From: an uncultured Desulfatitalea sp.
GTDB taxonomy: Bacteria; Desulfobacterota; Desulfobacteria; Desulfobacterales; Desulfosarcinaceae
NCBI GenBank assembly: GCA_937868765.1
Contig: CALMNL010000003.1
Location: 558,001-622,000, forward strand
Direction: 5' to 3'
Length of the DNA stretch: 64,000 nt
A program made the translations under genes and the position numbers. The notes beneath the pieces are model-generated. The model was not told the origin of the DNA and made no database searches. It worked only from the letters and a program-made list of their open reading frames with translations. Positions 22,699-27,217 of this stretch are shown here, piece after piece. Numbering within the stretch: the first letter of the stretch is position 1; every line of letters starts with the position of its first letter.

Positions 22699-23211
22699 AT
22701 GGAGTTGTTGGATGTCTGTCCGTTAGAGCGTTGGGTATCCCTGGAAAACGATATTTTTGAGCGCTCGGGGTTGTGTGCCTCGGTCTACGACACGGCCGGT
22801 ATCCGGATCAACCCCAACCTGCGCTGGCCGAACCGGCTTTGCCCGGAAATAAAGGCCACCTCCAAAGGACAGAGTTTCATCTGCGCCACAGCCCATATGA
22901 ATATTGCCATCATGGCCAAAGAGACCCGCTCTCCGGCGATCGAGGAGTGCGATGCGGGCATGCTCAAACTGGTGGTCCCCATTTTCGTGAACGGCGAATT
23001 CATCGGCAGTGCCGGGGGGTGCGGCCTGCTCCTGGATCAGGGCGAGGTCGACAGCTTCCTGGTCAATAAAATTACAGAGATCGACGAGGAGAGGGTGGAA
23101 TCCCTGTCACAGGGGATTGCGGCCTTGAGCATGGCCCAAGCCCGGGAACTGGCGCAATTCATCCAGGAACGCATTGAATTGATGGTCCAGGAGTGTTCGG
23201 CCGCAAAATAG
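22699..23211 (+). CDS. PocR-type sensory domain protein
   Basis: A 170-aa stand-alone PocR ligand-binding domain (PF10114-like): W..LENDIFERSGLCASVYD near the start, then CPEIKAT.KGQSFICA.AHMNIA, EECDAGMLKLVVPIFVNGEFIGSAGGCGLL. PocR domains sense small molecules (1,2-propanediol is the textbook case) and are normally fused to AraC or kinase domains; here no output domain is present. Seven or more Cys residues are spaced through the domain, which could bind a metal or heme. AAAGGAG precedes ATG 22699. It is the first gene of the Hdr/Qmo-like operon (12 nt to the next), suggesting a ligand or redox sensor for the complex, which is inference. Confidence 0.8.
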   Translation: MELLDVCPLERWVSLENDIFERSGLCASVYDTAGIRINPNLRWPNRLCPEIKATSKGQSFICATAHMNIAIMAKETRSPAIEECDAGMLKLVVPIFVNGEFIGSAGGCGLLLDQGEVDSFLVNKITEIDEERVESLSQGIAALSMAQARELAQFIQERIELMVQECSAAK

Positions 23212-23222
23212 AAGGAGCCGCT

Positions 23223-24281
23223 TTGAATTTACCAGAAAGGCAAGTTGTCATCGTGGGCGCAGGCGTAGCGGGCCTGGCCGCCGCGGACGAAATCGCCCGC
23301 TGGGGGGTGGCGGTGACCATGCTCGAAGAGGCCCCCCGTACCGGCGGGCACGCATCGCGCTATAGCTGCAAGGCCCTGGGGGAATGCGTCGCCTGCGGCG
23401 CCTGTCTGGCCGATGAACGTCGGCGGCGCGTGGCGGACAGAGAGAATGTAACGATCCTCGCGGGGGTGCGGATTTCCACTATCGAGAACAAAGTGGGCTT
23501 CAACATCCACTATGAACATCGCAACAGTCAAGAGCCGCCAGGGGGGCTCAAAGCCGACGCGCTGCTGTTGACGACTGGTTTCCAGCCATATGATCCATCC
23601 GATAAACCCTATGGCTATCGTCGTTTTCCCAATGTTTTGACCCTGCTGGATGCCGAGGACCGCCTGCAGCGGGAAGGCGTATTAACCTGCCCCTCGGACG
23701 GGCGGCCGCCGGAGCGCATTGCTTTTATCCAGTGTGTGGGCAGCCGGGACAGCCGCATCGGCCATCCGTGGTGCTCGAAAATCTGCTGTGGTGCGGCCCT
23801 GCGCATGGCGCGCCTGGTCCAATACCGGCGCCCGGAGACGGTCGTCACCTTCTTCTACATCGATGTGCAGACCTTCGGGAAGAACTTCCAAAAATATTAT
23901 GACCAGACCCGACGTCAGGTTCGGATGGTGCGTGCCATTCCCGGCGACATCGTTCAGTCTGAGGGCCAGCGTTTGCAGTTGGCTTACTTCGATCCCGATG
24001 CCAGCCGAGCGACGGAAGAGCCGTTCGATCTCGTGATTCTATCGGCTGGTATTGCACCCAATACGGACAACCCCTCCCTGGCGGACATGTTGGGAGTTCG
24101 TTTGAACGCAGCCGGCTTTTTCCACCCCCATGAAAGCGACGAGGGCCGGAAGCGGTCAGGCCTTTTTACGGCTGGTGCGGCATTGGGCCCCATGAGCATC
24201 GCCGAGAGCATCGACAGCGCCGGAAAAGCGGCCTGGGATATAATGAACTATCTGAAATCGAACGGTTTGTCCAAATTCTAA
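23223..24281 (+). CDS. HdrA/QmoA-like FAD iron-sulfur oxidoreductase
   Basis: 352 aa from TTG 23223, with GAAGGAG 5-6 nt upstream. N-terminal FAD fingerprint VIVGAGVAGLAAADEIA, then a cluster-binding segment C.....ECVACGAC near residue 50, and the HdrA family signature F-I-Q-C-V-G-S-R-D with WCSKICC near residue 170-190; a second dinucleotide motif GLFTAGAALGPMSIAESI closes the protein. QmoA and HdrA pass electrons between flavin and [4Fe-4S] clusters in sulfate reducers and methanogens. It is shorter than methanogen HdrA and lacks C-terminal ferredoxin domains, which the next gene supplies. Cytoplasmic. Confidence 0.9.
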   Translation: MNLPERQVVIVGAGVAGLAAADEIARWGVAVTMLEEAPRTGGHASRYSCKALGECVACGACLADERRRRVADRENVTILAGVRISTIENKVGFNIHYEHRNSQEPPGGLKADALLLTTGFQPYDPSDKPYGYRRFPNVLTLLDAEDRLQREGVLTCPSDGRPPERIAFIQCVGSRDSRIGHPWCSKICCGAALRMARLVQYRRPETVVTFFYIDVQTFGKNFQKYYDQTRRQVRMVRAIPGDIVQSEGQRLQLAYFDPDASRATEEPFDLVILSAGIAPNTDNPSLADMLGVRLNAAGFFHPHESDEGRKRSGLFTAGAALGPMSIAESIDSAGKAAWDIMNYLKSNGLSKF

Positions 24282-24346: not shown

Positions 24347-25957
24347 ATGCCCACTCAATACCATACACTCGTTTTTGGCAATGGTGAGTGCGCCCGGTCG
24401 CTGGCCATGGGGTTGAGCGGCCGCGGTCTGAAGGTGGCGATGGCCGTTGCCGCCCCTGTCGCCGATAAACTCGAACCGCCCGCTGGCCACGGCGACACCA
24501 TCACTTCCTGGGCCGGAACGCATCTCATCGCTTGCCAGGGACAGCCGGGCGATTTCCAACTTACCGTCGAGCAGGACGGCCGTCGCATGGTGCAACGGGC
24601 AGGCAGTATCGTGGTAGCCGAGCAGCCGCAGCAGATCCCCAACTTTGCCGTCTACGGATTGTCGTCATCCGGGCGGGTACTCTCCATCTCTCAGGCGGAG
24701 GCGATACTGCTGGACGGCAAGGCCGCATCCACGTCCGGGGGCGCCATCCATATACTCTTTCTAAATGACTGGAATGAGCATTGCCACCCGGTGACGGCGG
24801 CGCGCATGCTGCGGTTGTGCAAGACTGTCCAGCAATTGCCCAATAGGCACACGGTTTATATGGCCGGGCATCTTAAAGTGTCTGTCGAGGGCATGGAAGC
24901 TTGCTGTCAGGCAGCCAAAGCAGCCGGGACCATGTTTTTCAAGTTCGATCGCCAGCGGCCCCAAGTGCAGATGTTGCCAGATGGTCGGGTCCAGGCCTCG
25001 TGCTGGGACGACACCACCCGCATCACCTTCACCATGACATTCGATTACGTCGTGGTGGACGAAAAAATCACGCCCAACTCAACGCTTGACCACCTTTCAC
25101 GTGTGCTTCGTCTCGATCGCGACCTGCATGGGTTTGTGCAAAGCGACAATGTCCAACGCCTGAGCAATGCCACCAACCGGCGCGGCATTTTCGCCGCCGG
25201 CGGTGCACGCGCCGTTATGTCGCCGGAGGAGCAGCTATCCGATGCCGCCCACGCGGCCTTAAAAGTTTCCGAGTTCCTTGCCGGTCTGGACAAGGGGGAA
25301 CTGCCCCGGGTGGAGATCGATACGGCTCGGTGCGCCCGATGCCTGACCTGCTATCGCCTCTGTCCCCATGGGGCGATTGAAATGCTTCCCCGTATGACCG
25401 TCATGCCCCAGGCATGTCAAAGCTGCGGGCTGTGCATGGCCGGCTGTCCCAACCGGGCGATTCAGGTGCATGACGACCAGCTGACATCAGCGCTTCAACA
25501 GATGATGACGGAAGAGGCCCCACGACCCATGAACGGCCCTTTCATTCCCCGACTGGTCGCCTTTTGTTGCCGAAGGTCGGCGCTCCCTGCACGCGATATG
25601 GCTGTTTCGGCGGGGCATCGCCTGCCTGACGGCCTGGTGGTGGTGGAGGGGCTCTGCGGCGGTCGTTTTTCGGTGACCCATATGCTGAGCGCCCTGGAGG
25701 CCGGTGCCGACGGCGTGCTGGTGTTGACCTGCCACCCTGGGAATTGCCATTCGGAATGCGGTCCGACCAATGCGTCCCGGCGGGTCGATACGGCCGCCCA
25801 GGCGTTGGCCTTGGCCGATATCGGTGCCGAACGCCTGCATTTTGGCACCCTGGCGGCCAACATGGGCGCAGAGTTTGCCCGGACGGTCGAACAGTTCGCG
25901 CAAAGAATCGCCTCCCTGGGGCCCGTCATGAGCGAACAAACGATGCGCCGTTCGTAA
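24347..25957 (+). CDS. QmoB-like flavoprotein, ferredoxin and MvhD fusion
   Basis: A 536-aa three-part protein. Residues ~1-320 form an HdrA-like FAD domain whose first GxGxxG is degenerate (VFGNGECARSLA) but whose later FAAGGARAVMSPEEQLSDAAH is clear. Residues ~325-375 hold two [4Fe-4S] motifs, C-A-R-C-L-T-C-Y-R-L-C-P and C-Q-S-C-G-L-C-M-A-G-C-P. The last ~140 residues are an MvhD/FrhD-type domain (AFCCRRSA, VVVEGLCGGRFS, TCHPGNCHSECGPTNA). This order is that of QmoB in sulfate reducers. It should connect the flavin/cluster chain of the QmoA-like subunit to the downstream HdrD-like protein. Starts 66 nt after the previous gene. Confidence 0.9.
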   Translation: MPTQYHTLVFGNGECARSLAMGLSGRGLKVAMAVAAPVADKLEPPAGHGDTITSWAGTHLIACQGQPGDFQLTVEQDGRRMVQRAGSIVVAEQPQQIPNFAVYGLSSSGRVLSISQAEAILLDGKAASTSGGAIHILFLNDWNEHCHPVTAARMLRLCKTVQQLPNRHTVYMAGHLKVSVEGMEACCQAAKAAGTMFFKFDRQRPQVQMLPDGRVQASCWDDTTRITFTMTFDYVVVDEKITPNSTLDHLSRVLRLDRDLHGFVQSDNVQRLSNATNRRGIFAAGGARAVMSPEEQLSDAAHAALKVSEFLAGLDKGELPRVEIDTARCARCLTCYRLCPHGAIEMLPRMTVMPQACQSCGLCMAGCPNRAIQVHDDQLTSALQQMMTEEAPRPMNGPFIPRLVAFCCRRSALPARDMAVSAGHRLPDGLVVVEGLCGGRFSVTHMLSALEAGADGVLVLTCHPGNCHSECGPTNASRRVDTAAQALALADIGAERLHFGTLAANMGAEFARTVEQFAQRIASLGPVMSEQTMRRS

Positions 25958-25984: not shown

Positions 25985-27217
25985 ATGACCATTTTACAAA
26001 ATCCGGTCTCCTTCGAGAGCTTGGATCCGGGTCGCTCCAGAGCATGGCCCTGTGACCAGGATCTTTGCCTGACCTGCGCCAACTGCTCCGGCGCCTGCCC
26101 GGTAGCGGGCATCGATGATTTCGACCCGCGCAAAATCGTGCGCATGGTTTCCATGGGCATGGCGGACCATGTGGCCTCGGAACGCTGGCCCTGGATTTGT
26201 ACCATGTGCGGTAAATGCGAACAGGTCTGCCCCATGGGCATCGCCATCCCCGACATGATGCGGCGCATCCGTTCCCTGCGTGCCCGGGACCAGATCCCCG
26301 GGATTCTCCAGAGCGGTCTGGAGAACGCCCTGCGCACCGGCAACAACCTGGCCCTGCCGAAGGAGGATTTCGTTTTCATCCTGGAAGATGTCGGGGCGGA
26401 GATCGCAGAGGAACAAGGCTTCGAGACTTTTACGGTGCCCATCGACAAGGAGGGCGCCAACATTCTCACCACCATCCACAACAAGCTGGTCAATACCCAC
26501 ACCGAAGACCTGAAGCACTGGTGGAAGATCTTTCATGCCGCCGGCGAAGATTGGACCGTGGCGGCCGACAACTGGGAGGGCACCAGCTGGGGATACTTTA
26601 CGGGAGACGACGAGGCCATGAAAACCATGGCTGGGCGCATCGTGGAAAACATGCGTCGGCTCAAAGCCAGGACCCTGTTGTGGCCCGAATGAGGGCACGC
26701 CTATCTGGCGACCAGGTATGGTCTGCAGAAATGGTTCCCCGAAGCGCTTCAGGAGTTTGAAACCATCACCGTGTTCGACCTGTTGATTCGTTATATCCGG
26801 CAGGGCCGTATCACCCTAAACCGCGACCGCTTCACACAATTGGCCACCTATCATGATCCATGCAATTACGGCCGGCGGGCGGAAAAGATTTTCGGGCAGG
26901 GTTTTTTCGAAGAGCCGCGCTGGATCATGGATCAATGCCTGACCCACTGGGTGGAACTCTATCCGGACCGGCGGCATCAGTTCTGCTGTGGCGGCGGTGG
27001 AGGGGCCCTGACCAACGGTTATAACGAAGAACGTATTTTCTACGGGCGCCGCAAAATGGATCAGATCAAGGCCACCGGCGCCGAGATGCTGGTGGTTCCC
27101 TGTCACAGCTGCCACGGCCAGCTCAACAACATCAAAGCCACTTATGGCCTGCCCAAACTGACGGTCAAATATCTCTGGGAACTGGTGGCCGATTGTCTGG
27201 TTCTGTCGGAAGCATAG
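25985..27217 (+). CDS. HdrCD/DsrK-like Fe-S protein with probable selenocysteine (UGA 26690)
   Basis: Read through the in-frame TGA at 26690-26692, this is one 410-aa protein. Residues 25-90 carry two [4Fe-4S] motifs (C-L-T-C-A-N-C-S-G-A-C-P; C-T-M-C-G-K-C-E-Q-V-C-P). Residues ~130-250 match the first CCG domain of DsrK/HmeD/TmcB-type proteins, and residues ~270-400 the second (YHDPCNYGR, FCCGGGGGA, PCHSCHG). The UGA replaces the Cys of the conserved P-E-C-G-H-A-Y block (TLLWPE-UGA-GHAYLATRY), and the same frame continues at once with conserved sequence. A SECIS-like hairpin follows. Hence Sec rather than a true stop is the best reading. Likely the thiol/disulfide-active subunit of the complex. 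If Sec is wrong, it is a nonsense-mutated gene. Confidence 0.82.
26693..26730 (+). promoter_or_regulatory. Candidate bacterial SECIS element
   Basis: Directly after the in-frame UGA. One fold pairs G26708-C26709-(GACC 26710-26713) with (GGTC 26720-26723)-bulged T26724-G26725-C26726 around a six-base loop A-G-G-T-A-T. The E. coli fdhF SECIS has a six-base AGGUCU loop and a bulged U in the same kind of short stem. The loop GGU lies 23-25 nt after UGA, inside the usual range for bacterial SECIS. An alternative longer stem (26700-26708 with 26712-26721, CGA loop, bulged T26719) is mutually exclusive. The element lies in coding sequence, as bacterial SECIS elements do. Confidence 0.6.

Follow-up and report, generated by a model that had tools for sequence, protein, structure and literature searches.

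A conserved in-frame UGA, almost certainly read as selenocysteine, in an HdrD-like subunit encoded by a Desulfobacterales HdrA – HdrA/MvhD – HdrD module

An in-frame UGA interrupts an HdrD/GlpC-like gene

Does the TGA that parts two same-phase open reading frames in the 64,000-nucleotide stretch of uncultured Desulfatitalea sp. DNA analysed here ("the window") end a protein, or is it read as an amino acid? Translation with table 11 gives a single frame across nucleotides 25985–27217 whose only internal stop is this TGA, so the coordinates and lengths given for the two frames in the original prediction are correct. Read through the TGA, the frame encodes 410 residues (235 + 1 + 174) and closes with a TAG; the TGA is codon 236, in the block LLWPE-U-GHAYLATRY. 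The prediction also held that standard annotation would split one 410 amino acid protein in two, and an ORF caller does just that, giving a 235-codon ORF (25985..26692) and a 148 amino acid ORF that begins at an internal GTG. Such splitting happens easily at a UGA, and here it hides the likely catalytic subunit of a conserved gene module of sulfate-reducer-type bacteria. Our best overall explanation, which we hold with high confidence, is that selenocysteine (Sec) is inserted at the UGA and that the product is the HdrD-like subunit of an HdrA – HdrA/MvhD – HdrD complex. That UGA 236 encodes Sec is, taken by itself, almost certain, since the close relatives examined keep both the UGA and a hairpin after it. 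The features are collected in Table 1.

Table 1. Features of the HdrD-like gene and its surroundings, and second tRNA-Sec-like genes at related loci
Feature	Position	Strand	Basis
PocR-domain sensory protein heading the cluster, kept in a minority of relatives	22699..23211	+	Pfam, loci
HdrA-like FAD subunit without in-frame UGA, likely partner	23193..24281	+	Pfam, NCBIfam, loci
HdrA C-terminal half fused to MvhD/FlpD, without in-frame UGA, likely partner	24347..25957	+	Pfam, NCBIfam, loci
HdrD/GlpC-like Fe-S oxidoreductase, 410 aa with predicted Sec236	25985..27217	+	translation, Pfam, orthologues
Dicluster 4Fe-4S ferredoxin region, residues 28–86, eight Cys invariant in alignment A1	26066..26242	+	
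UGA codon 236, read as selenocysteine (predicted)	26690..26692	+	TGA in relatives; TGA/Cys in intact distant homologues
His238 codon, aligned with EtfD His583	26696..26698	+	alignments
SECIS-like hairpin at 11 nt 3' of the UGA	26704..26729	+	fold, synonymous constraint, pair counts, stem counts
Outer stem of hairpin	26704-26707/26726-26729	+	fold
Inner stem of hairpin	26710-26714/26719-26723	+	fold
CCG domain, residues 288–380 (Cys293, 334, 335, 373, 376), predicted noncubane [4Fe-4S] site	26846..27124	+	
Second tRNA-Sec-like genes, TCA, beside second selB	L037:7179-7270, L038:6007-6098, L039:13697-13783, L040:4739-4832, L041:8412-8503		

The UGA is conserved among relatives

Forty related genomes were searched and yielded 16 matches of nearly full length (L001–L016, 57–100% identity, L001 being the window gene itself), and from a scan of bacterial and archaeal genomes the best 80 of 322 relatives were kept (57–80% identity); the two sets overlap, some genomes being common to both. 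Column 236 is TGA in 16/16 of the former and 80/80 of the latter, so the TGA at codon 236 is not there by chance. The 96 aligned rows have no further internal stops, except in L053, where a TGA falls on the final aligned residues. Among the matches listed from a 291-genome sample of the class, 86 are at least 53% identical to the window protein and each contains at least one TGA somewhere in the match; three more high-identity pieces are partial, one of which spans the column and has a TGA, and the other two stop short of it.

The 42 mostly more distant homologue rows comprise 23 with TGA, 17 with a Cys codon (one gene being counted twice, as L017 and L036), one with TTC and one that does not reach the column. 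The TTC (Phe), the sole other codon found, belongs to a gene broken by an internal TAA; the intact homologues examined have only TGA or TGC/TGT at this column. Paralogues within the window's genome have UGA at the column in five cases and Cys in one, the UGA forms being 34–36% identical to the 410-residue protein. Such alternation of Cys and Sec at one column among intact genes is the textbook mark of a selenoprotein. This restriction to Cys or UGA, and the lack of further internal frame disruptions in close relatives, both agree with the original prediction.

Identity and codon-position differences are similar 5' and 3' of the TGA in seven relatives (L002, for example, is identical to the window gene at 0.91 before the UGA and 0.90 after it), and such similar selection on the two sides means that the 3' part is most likely translated together with the 5' part. 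A true stop, in a broken gene or between two separate proteins, would match what the mechanical ORF caller draws, frames of 235 and 148 amino acids with the second starting at the internal GTG, but the same UGA is kept down to 57% identity, selection is similar on both sides of it, and the stretch 3' of it carries extra synonymous constraint (below), and we give this explanation practically no weight. A broken gene or a sequencing error was rejected on the conservation of the UGA together with the similar selection on its two sides.

The window's genome appears to be rich in selenoproteins, with five UGA-containing GlpC-like paralogues and a UGA-containing selD. In these five further genes (L134–L138) the in-frame UGA lies in a TEUGH block and is in each case followed by a predicted hairpin. 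The broken GlpC-like gene with the TTC (Phe) codon in place of Cys/Sec and the internal TAA (L038:2141-3247) adjoins an intact Cys copy and a second selB.

A SECIS-like hairpin follows the UGA

Synonymous sites were compared in 86 close relatives, reduced to 83 by dropping those at least 95% identical at the DNA level, with the expectation taken from codon usage. Within the region for which codon values were given, codons 242 (z 4.2) and 243 (z 5.6) show the greatest synonymous excess; all twelve of the gene's top 10-codon windows for synonymous identity start at codons 233–244. Nowhere in the gene is synonymous constraint stronger than just 3' of the UGA, over the hairpin, and the hairpin appears to be constrained beyond what the protein demands.

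Measures of the fold itself are more mixed. The window's own sequence folds with a z of -1.54 (14/200 shuffles are as good), RNAalifold over the 83 sequences gives a weak -1.4 kcal/mol, and the outer stem is poorly kept among other relatives. In the 82 distinct sequences 78% of cells pair, versus 26–55% when the partners are slid. Pair 31/36 is AU in 40 sequences and CG in 19; for pair 27/40 the types are GC, GU and AU, and for pair 24/43 there are four, with changes on both sides at all three pairs; pair 22/45 fails in 67/82. The covariation score lies above all 500 shuffles, an excess that relatedness alone can produce; in the same 82 sequences the number of pairs with both-side changes is not above shuffles (222/500 reach it), nor is the number of pair types clearly so (62/500). 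In a subgroup with the apex CCCGGUCCGGG the pairing seems to be shifted along by one base, which may explain part of the weakness of these pair statistics. By a crude count a stem with 5 or more pairs is present in 74/83 orthologues, 25/25 other Sec forms and 12/20 Cys forms, and in a fraction of 0.38–0.46 of codon-shuffled sequences (46% for the orthologue set). The five same-genome paralogues and selD also fold hairpins after their own UGAs, without a shuffle control in these cases. The consensus apex, ACC-AGGUCU-GGU, is one that we take to resemble the E. coli fdhF element. At gathering thresholds Rfam finds only two tRNAs in the window.

Selenocysteine machinery and alternative decoding

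All four of the genes selA, selB, selC and selD that the original prediction singled out are present in the window's genome: selA scores 614 bits, selB 361 bits and tRNA-Sec 72.4 bits (anticodon TCA), and selD, above its cut-off, has an in-frame UGA of its own. Among the 40 related genomes, selA, selB and tRNA-Sec are above cut-off in 39, 37 and 32, respectively. At an E value of 0.001 the selB, selD and tRNA-Sec models match all 14 control genomes, and are above cut-off in 2, 2 and 5 of them, so the cut-offs matter; the matches in the window's genome all pass them. Six of the 16 genomes behind L001–L016 (G017, G019, G021, G024, G026 and G027) lack a tRNA-Sec above 70 bits. With the window genome's own tRNA-Sec as query, G017 yields a piece of 27 bases where a contig ends, and the other five yield no match. 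Since all six are drafts (86–97% completeness), these absences are likely gaps at the tRNA gene.

Two contigs, L182 (G010:C137:1-33) and L181 (G017:C40:1-27), start with an exact 3' piece of tRNA-Sec. G010 has a complete tRNA-Sec as well, as if assemblies break, or an element ends, at tRNA-Sec.

The synthesis and delivery of Sec would follow the usual actors: SelA would make Sec-tRNA-Sec(UCA), which SelB, bound to the hairpin just 3' of the UGA, would deliver to the UGA at 26690–26692. Genome-wide reassignment of UGA was rejected; the stops of eleven window genes were checked, and two of these genes, cysS and pgm, end in TGA.

A second way of decoding had to be weighed, in which the selC* tRNA-Cys(UCA) / SelB* / CysRS* system known from the Desulfobacterales would insert cysteine at the UGA; the selC*/selB* pairs of this system, with CysRS*, are described in a review as cysteine-type. 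Several relatives do have a second selB and a second tRNA-Sec-like gene with a TCA anticodon; in two that carry the UGA orthologue, G017 and G019, the only tRNA above cut-off is selC*-like, and G019 has only a selB*-like selB, with no canonical selB above cut-off. G017, on the other hand, also has a canonical selB and the canonical tRNA-Sec piece at a contig end, and G009, G010 and others carry the UGA though they have no second selB above cut-off. The window's genome has a single selB and a single tRNA-Sec above the cut-offs, and its next three tRNA matches are Leu, Ser and Leu, which argues that the window UGA is Sec and not Cys; with no second selB or selC* tRNA above cut-off, cysteine decoding was rejected for this genome and we consider it very improbable for this codon. 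It may occur in two draft genomes of relatives, G019 among them.

The second tRNA-Sec-like genes that lie beside a second selB have the anticodon TCA in five loci and GCA in one. The last is in G029, where L036:7719-9619 has in a row a tRNA-Sec-shaped tRNA-Cys (GCA), a Cys sister of the window HdrD and the start of a second selB; this HdrD gene is embedded in a likely selC*/selB* system. A Cys-containing GlpC-like gene is also present within about 4 kb in L037, L038 and L040, and about 9 kb off in L039.

A conserved HdrA – HdrA/MvhD – HdrD module

The Sec protein closes a conserved HdrA – HdrA/MvhD – HdrD module. The fused HdrA/MvhD gene is directly upstream of the HdrD-like gene in 62/66 loci with enough sequence (of the 80), and HdrA precedes HdrA/MvhD in 54/59. 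PocR is upstream in 17/52 loci and just downstream in 5/80. Among the 42 loci that reach 14 kb or more, the only families found in more than eight loci are the module itself, PocR and antisense frames; the recurring antisense frames overlap module genes (in the examples listed). No neighbour beyond the module and PocR in these 42 loci hints at a substrate, and hydrogenase genes (frhG/frhA) are not seen among the recurrent neighbours. Neither HdrA (59 matched pieces) nor HdrA/MvhD (69 matched pieces) has a conserved in-frame UGA; among all of these pieces L121 alone has two TGAs, both at other columns; a TAA or TAG occurs in four pieces. The QmoA-like protein of the same genome, so named from its position before qmoC, is just 29% identical to the HdrA subunit. 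Promoter and terminator scans gave nothing above shuffles, and a PHROGs search gave no match.

The PocR-type sensory domain (22699–23211) is free-standing, is sometimes found downstream of the module, and is a possible sensor of the substrate.

Protein domains and the site of Sec236

Pfam finds Fer4_8 at residues 26–86 and a single CCG domain at 288–380, and there are no cysteines at all in residues 150–235. A two-cluster HdrB/HdrD proper was rejected on these grounds. AlphaFold2 (16 sequences) gives a mean pLDDT of 77 and a pTM of 0.78, and the top PDB fold matches of the model are EtfD (9ojn), which is best, followed by HdrB chains and a LutA-LutB model. In EtfD, Cys581 is a ligand of a linear cluster and His583 binds the noncubane cluster that belongs to the other CCG domain (PMC13083937).

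The alignments would set U236 in register with EtfD Cys581: the C-P-H-C block of 9ojn is covered by a match to a protein encoded in the window's genome, whose His aligns with His238 of the window protein, which places U236 on Cys581. An hhalign comparison of the first with the second CCG domain of the protein was not significant, so this register rests on the EtfD-like alignments and predicted secondary structure. The most likely place of Sec236 is next to the single noncubane cluster.

What might the selenocysteine do there? An Hdr-type electron-transfer complex seems to us a fairly probable setting. The product would then be the HdrD-like catalytic subunit of a putatively cytoplasmic HdrA – HdrA/MvhD – HdrD complex, in which electrons would pass from the flavin and Fe-S subunits HdrA/MvhD through the ferredoxin region to one cluster, predicted to be a noncubane [4Fe-4S], in the intact C-terminal CCG domain. 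The N-terminal CCG-like domain would have lost its cluster cysteines and kept Sec236 alone, next to His238. A selenolate facing the noncubane cluster might split a disulfide, a persulfide or something similar, or might be a soft ligand of the cluster. Disulfide-type chemistry at Sec236 is a tentative suggestion that we find rather doubtful; the Sec form may be a faster catalyst than the Cys form, as the original prediction had it, with a thiol-type substrate attacked at the site. It is quite conceivable, if in our view a little short of an even chance, that Sec is made but that the protein is mainly an EtfD-like electron relay in which Sec236 is structural or a cluster ligand and does not attack a substrate. 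EtfD is the best fold match, and its aligned Cys581 and His583 are both cluster ligands; against this, nothing in residues 150–235 corresponds to the remaining Cys ligands of cluster D1 in EtfD, and the lack of a Cys form in the close clade is explained no less well by a reactive selenol.

Evolution of the clade

A tree was built from an input of 142 rows (121 Sec, 20 Cys, 1 Phe), 130 of them distinct, of which 79 were used (L044–L123 being represented by one in three). The 37 rows that form the clade of the window protein all have Sec, and the tree as a whole requires no fewer than five Sec/Cys changes. Sec/Cys exchange occurs in the wider family and is not seen within the window protein's clade. 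At or above 53% identity, the matches listed from the 291-genome class sample include no Cys form, and none was found in close relatives. One may speculate that the clade is Sec-obligate and that Sec236 replaces one of the two classical Hdr noncubane clusters, with one noncubane [4Fe-4S] cluster and the selenolate (its Se possibly bound to cluster iron) cleaving the substrate between them in a hydrogenase-free, flavin-based electron-bifurcating complex of the Desulfobacterales; we think this combination improbable as a whole. The all-Sec clade, set against its Cys sister clades, lends itself to asking why certain redox enzymes are unable to drop selenium, and whether Sec can replace, or bind, a noncubane iron-sulfur cluster.

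Comparison with known systems

The best NCBIfam models for the window protein are DsrK, HmcF and TmcB, and identity with these was rejected (144 vs 400, 181 vs 750 and 175 vs 735 bits, respectively, the second figure being the cut-off). The window's genome has a DsrK, an HmcF and a TmcB of its own, each above its cut-off, and each has Cys in the ECGH block at the Sec column, so that the Cys which the original prediction ascribed to the ECGHAY block of DsrK/TmcB-type proteins is there in these three. EtfD of Mycobacterium smegmatis (PDB 9ojn) has a C-P-H-C block that aligns with U-G-H-A of the window protein; it is a membrane-bound protein that has heme and two clusters bound by CCG domains (PMC13083937), whereas the first CCG-like domain of the window protein has no cluster cysteines.

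Sec-containing Hdr proteins and Fe-S oxidoreductases had already been described, as the original prediction stated (PMC1794560, PMC13188914, PMC2702500, PMC8318568). A Sec-containing "Fe-S oxidoreductase (GlpC)" adjoins hdrA-frhD-frhG-frhA in Deltaproteobacteria (Zhang et al. 2006, PMC1794560), and an "Fe-S oxidoreductase-like" selenoprotein family is tabulated with the motif UGH in a 2026 review (PMC13188914). The GlpC family and the window protein are alike in being Fe-S oxidoreductases with Sec in a UGH motif (U236-G237-H238 here), in having hdrA and frhD/mvhD-type neighbours, and in the exchange of Sec and Cys within the family. The published glpC operon also has Sec in HdrA, FrhD and FrhA and includes hydrogenase subunits (PMC1794560), unlike the window module, in which HdrA and MvhD lack a conserved UGA and no hydrogenase gene recurs. 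Sec-containing HdrD4 and HdrF2 have been predicted in the sulfate reducer Desulfobacterium autotrophicum, HdrD being described there as soluble (PMC2702500); these resemble the window protein in being Sec-containing and HdrD-type, a comparison made by description only. A marine deltaproteobacterium is reported to have a Sec "Fe-S oxidoreductase" and a Sec "heterodisulfide reductase" (PMC8318568), and of the five UGA genes reported for Desulfococcus multivorans none is an HdrD. Our literature search, which left most subscription journals outside its range, found no publication on this clade with its Sec-free HdrA and HdrA/MvhD partners, which is weak evidence of absence. With Sec-containing Fe-S oxidoreductase/GlpC and HdrD4 proteins in print, the window protein adds a branch to a known selenoprotein family, one in which every sampled member uses Sec.
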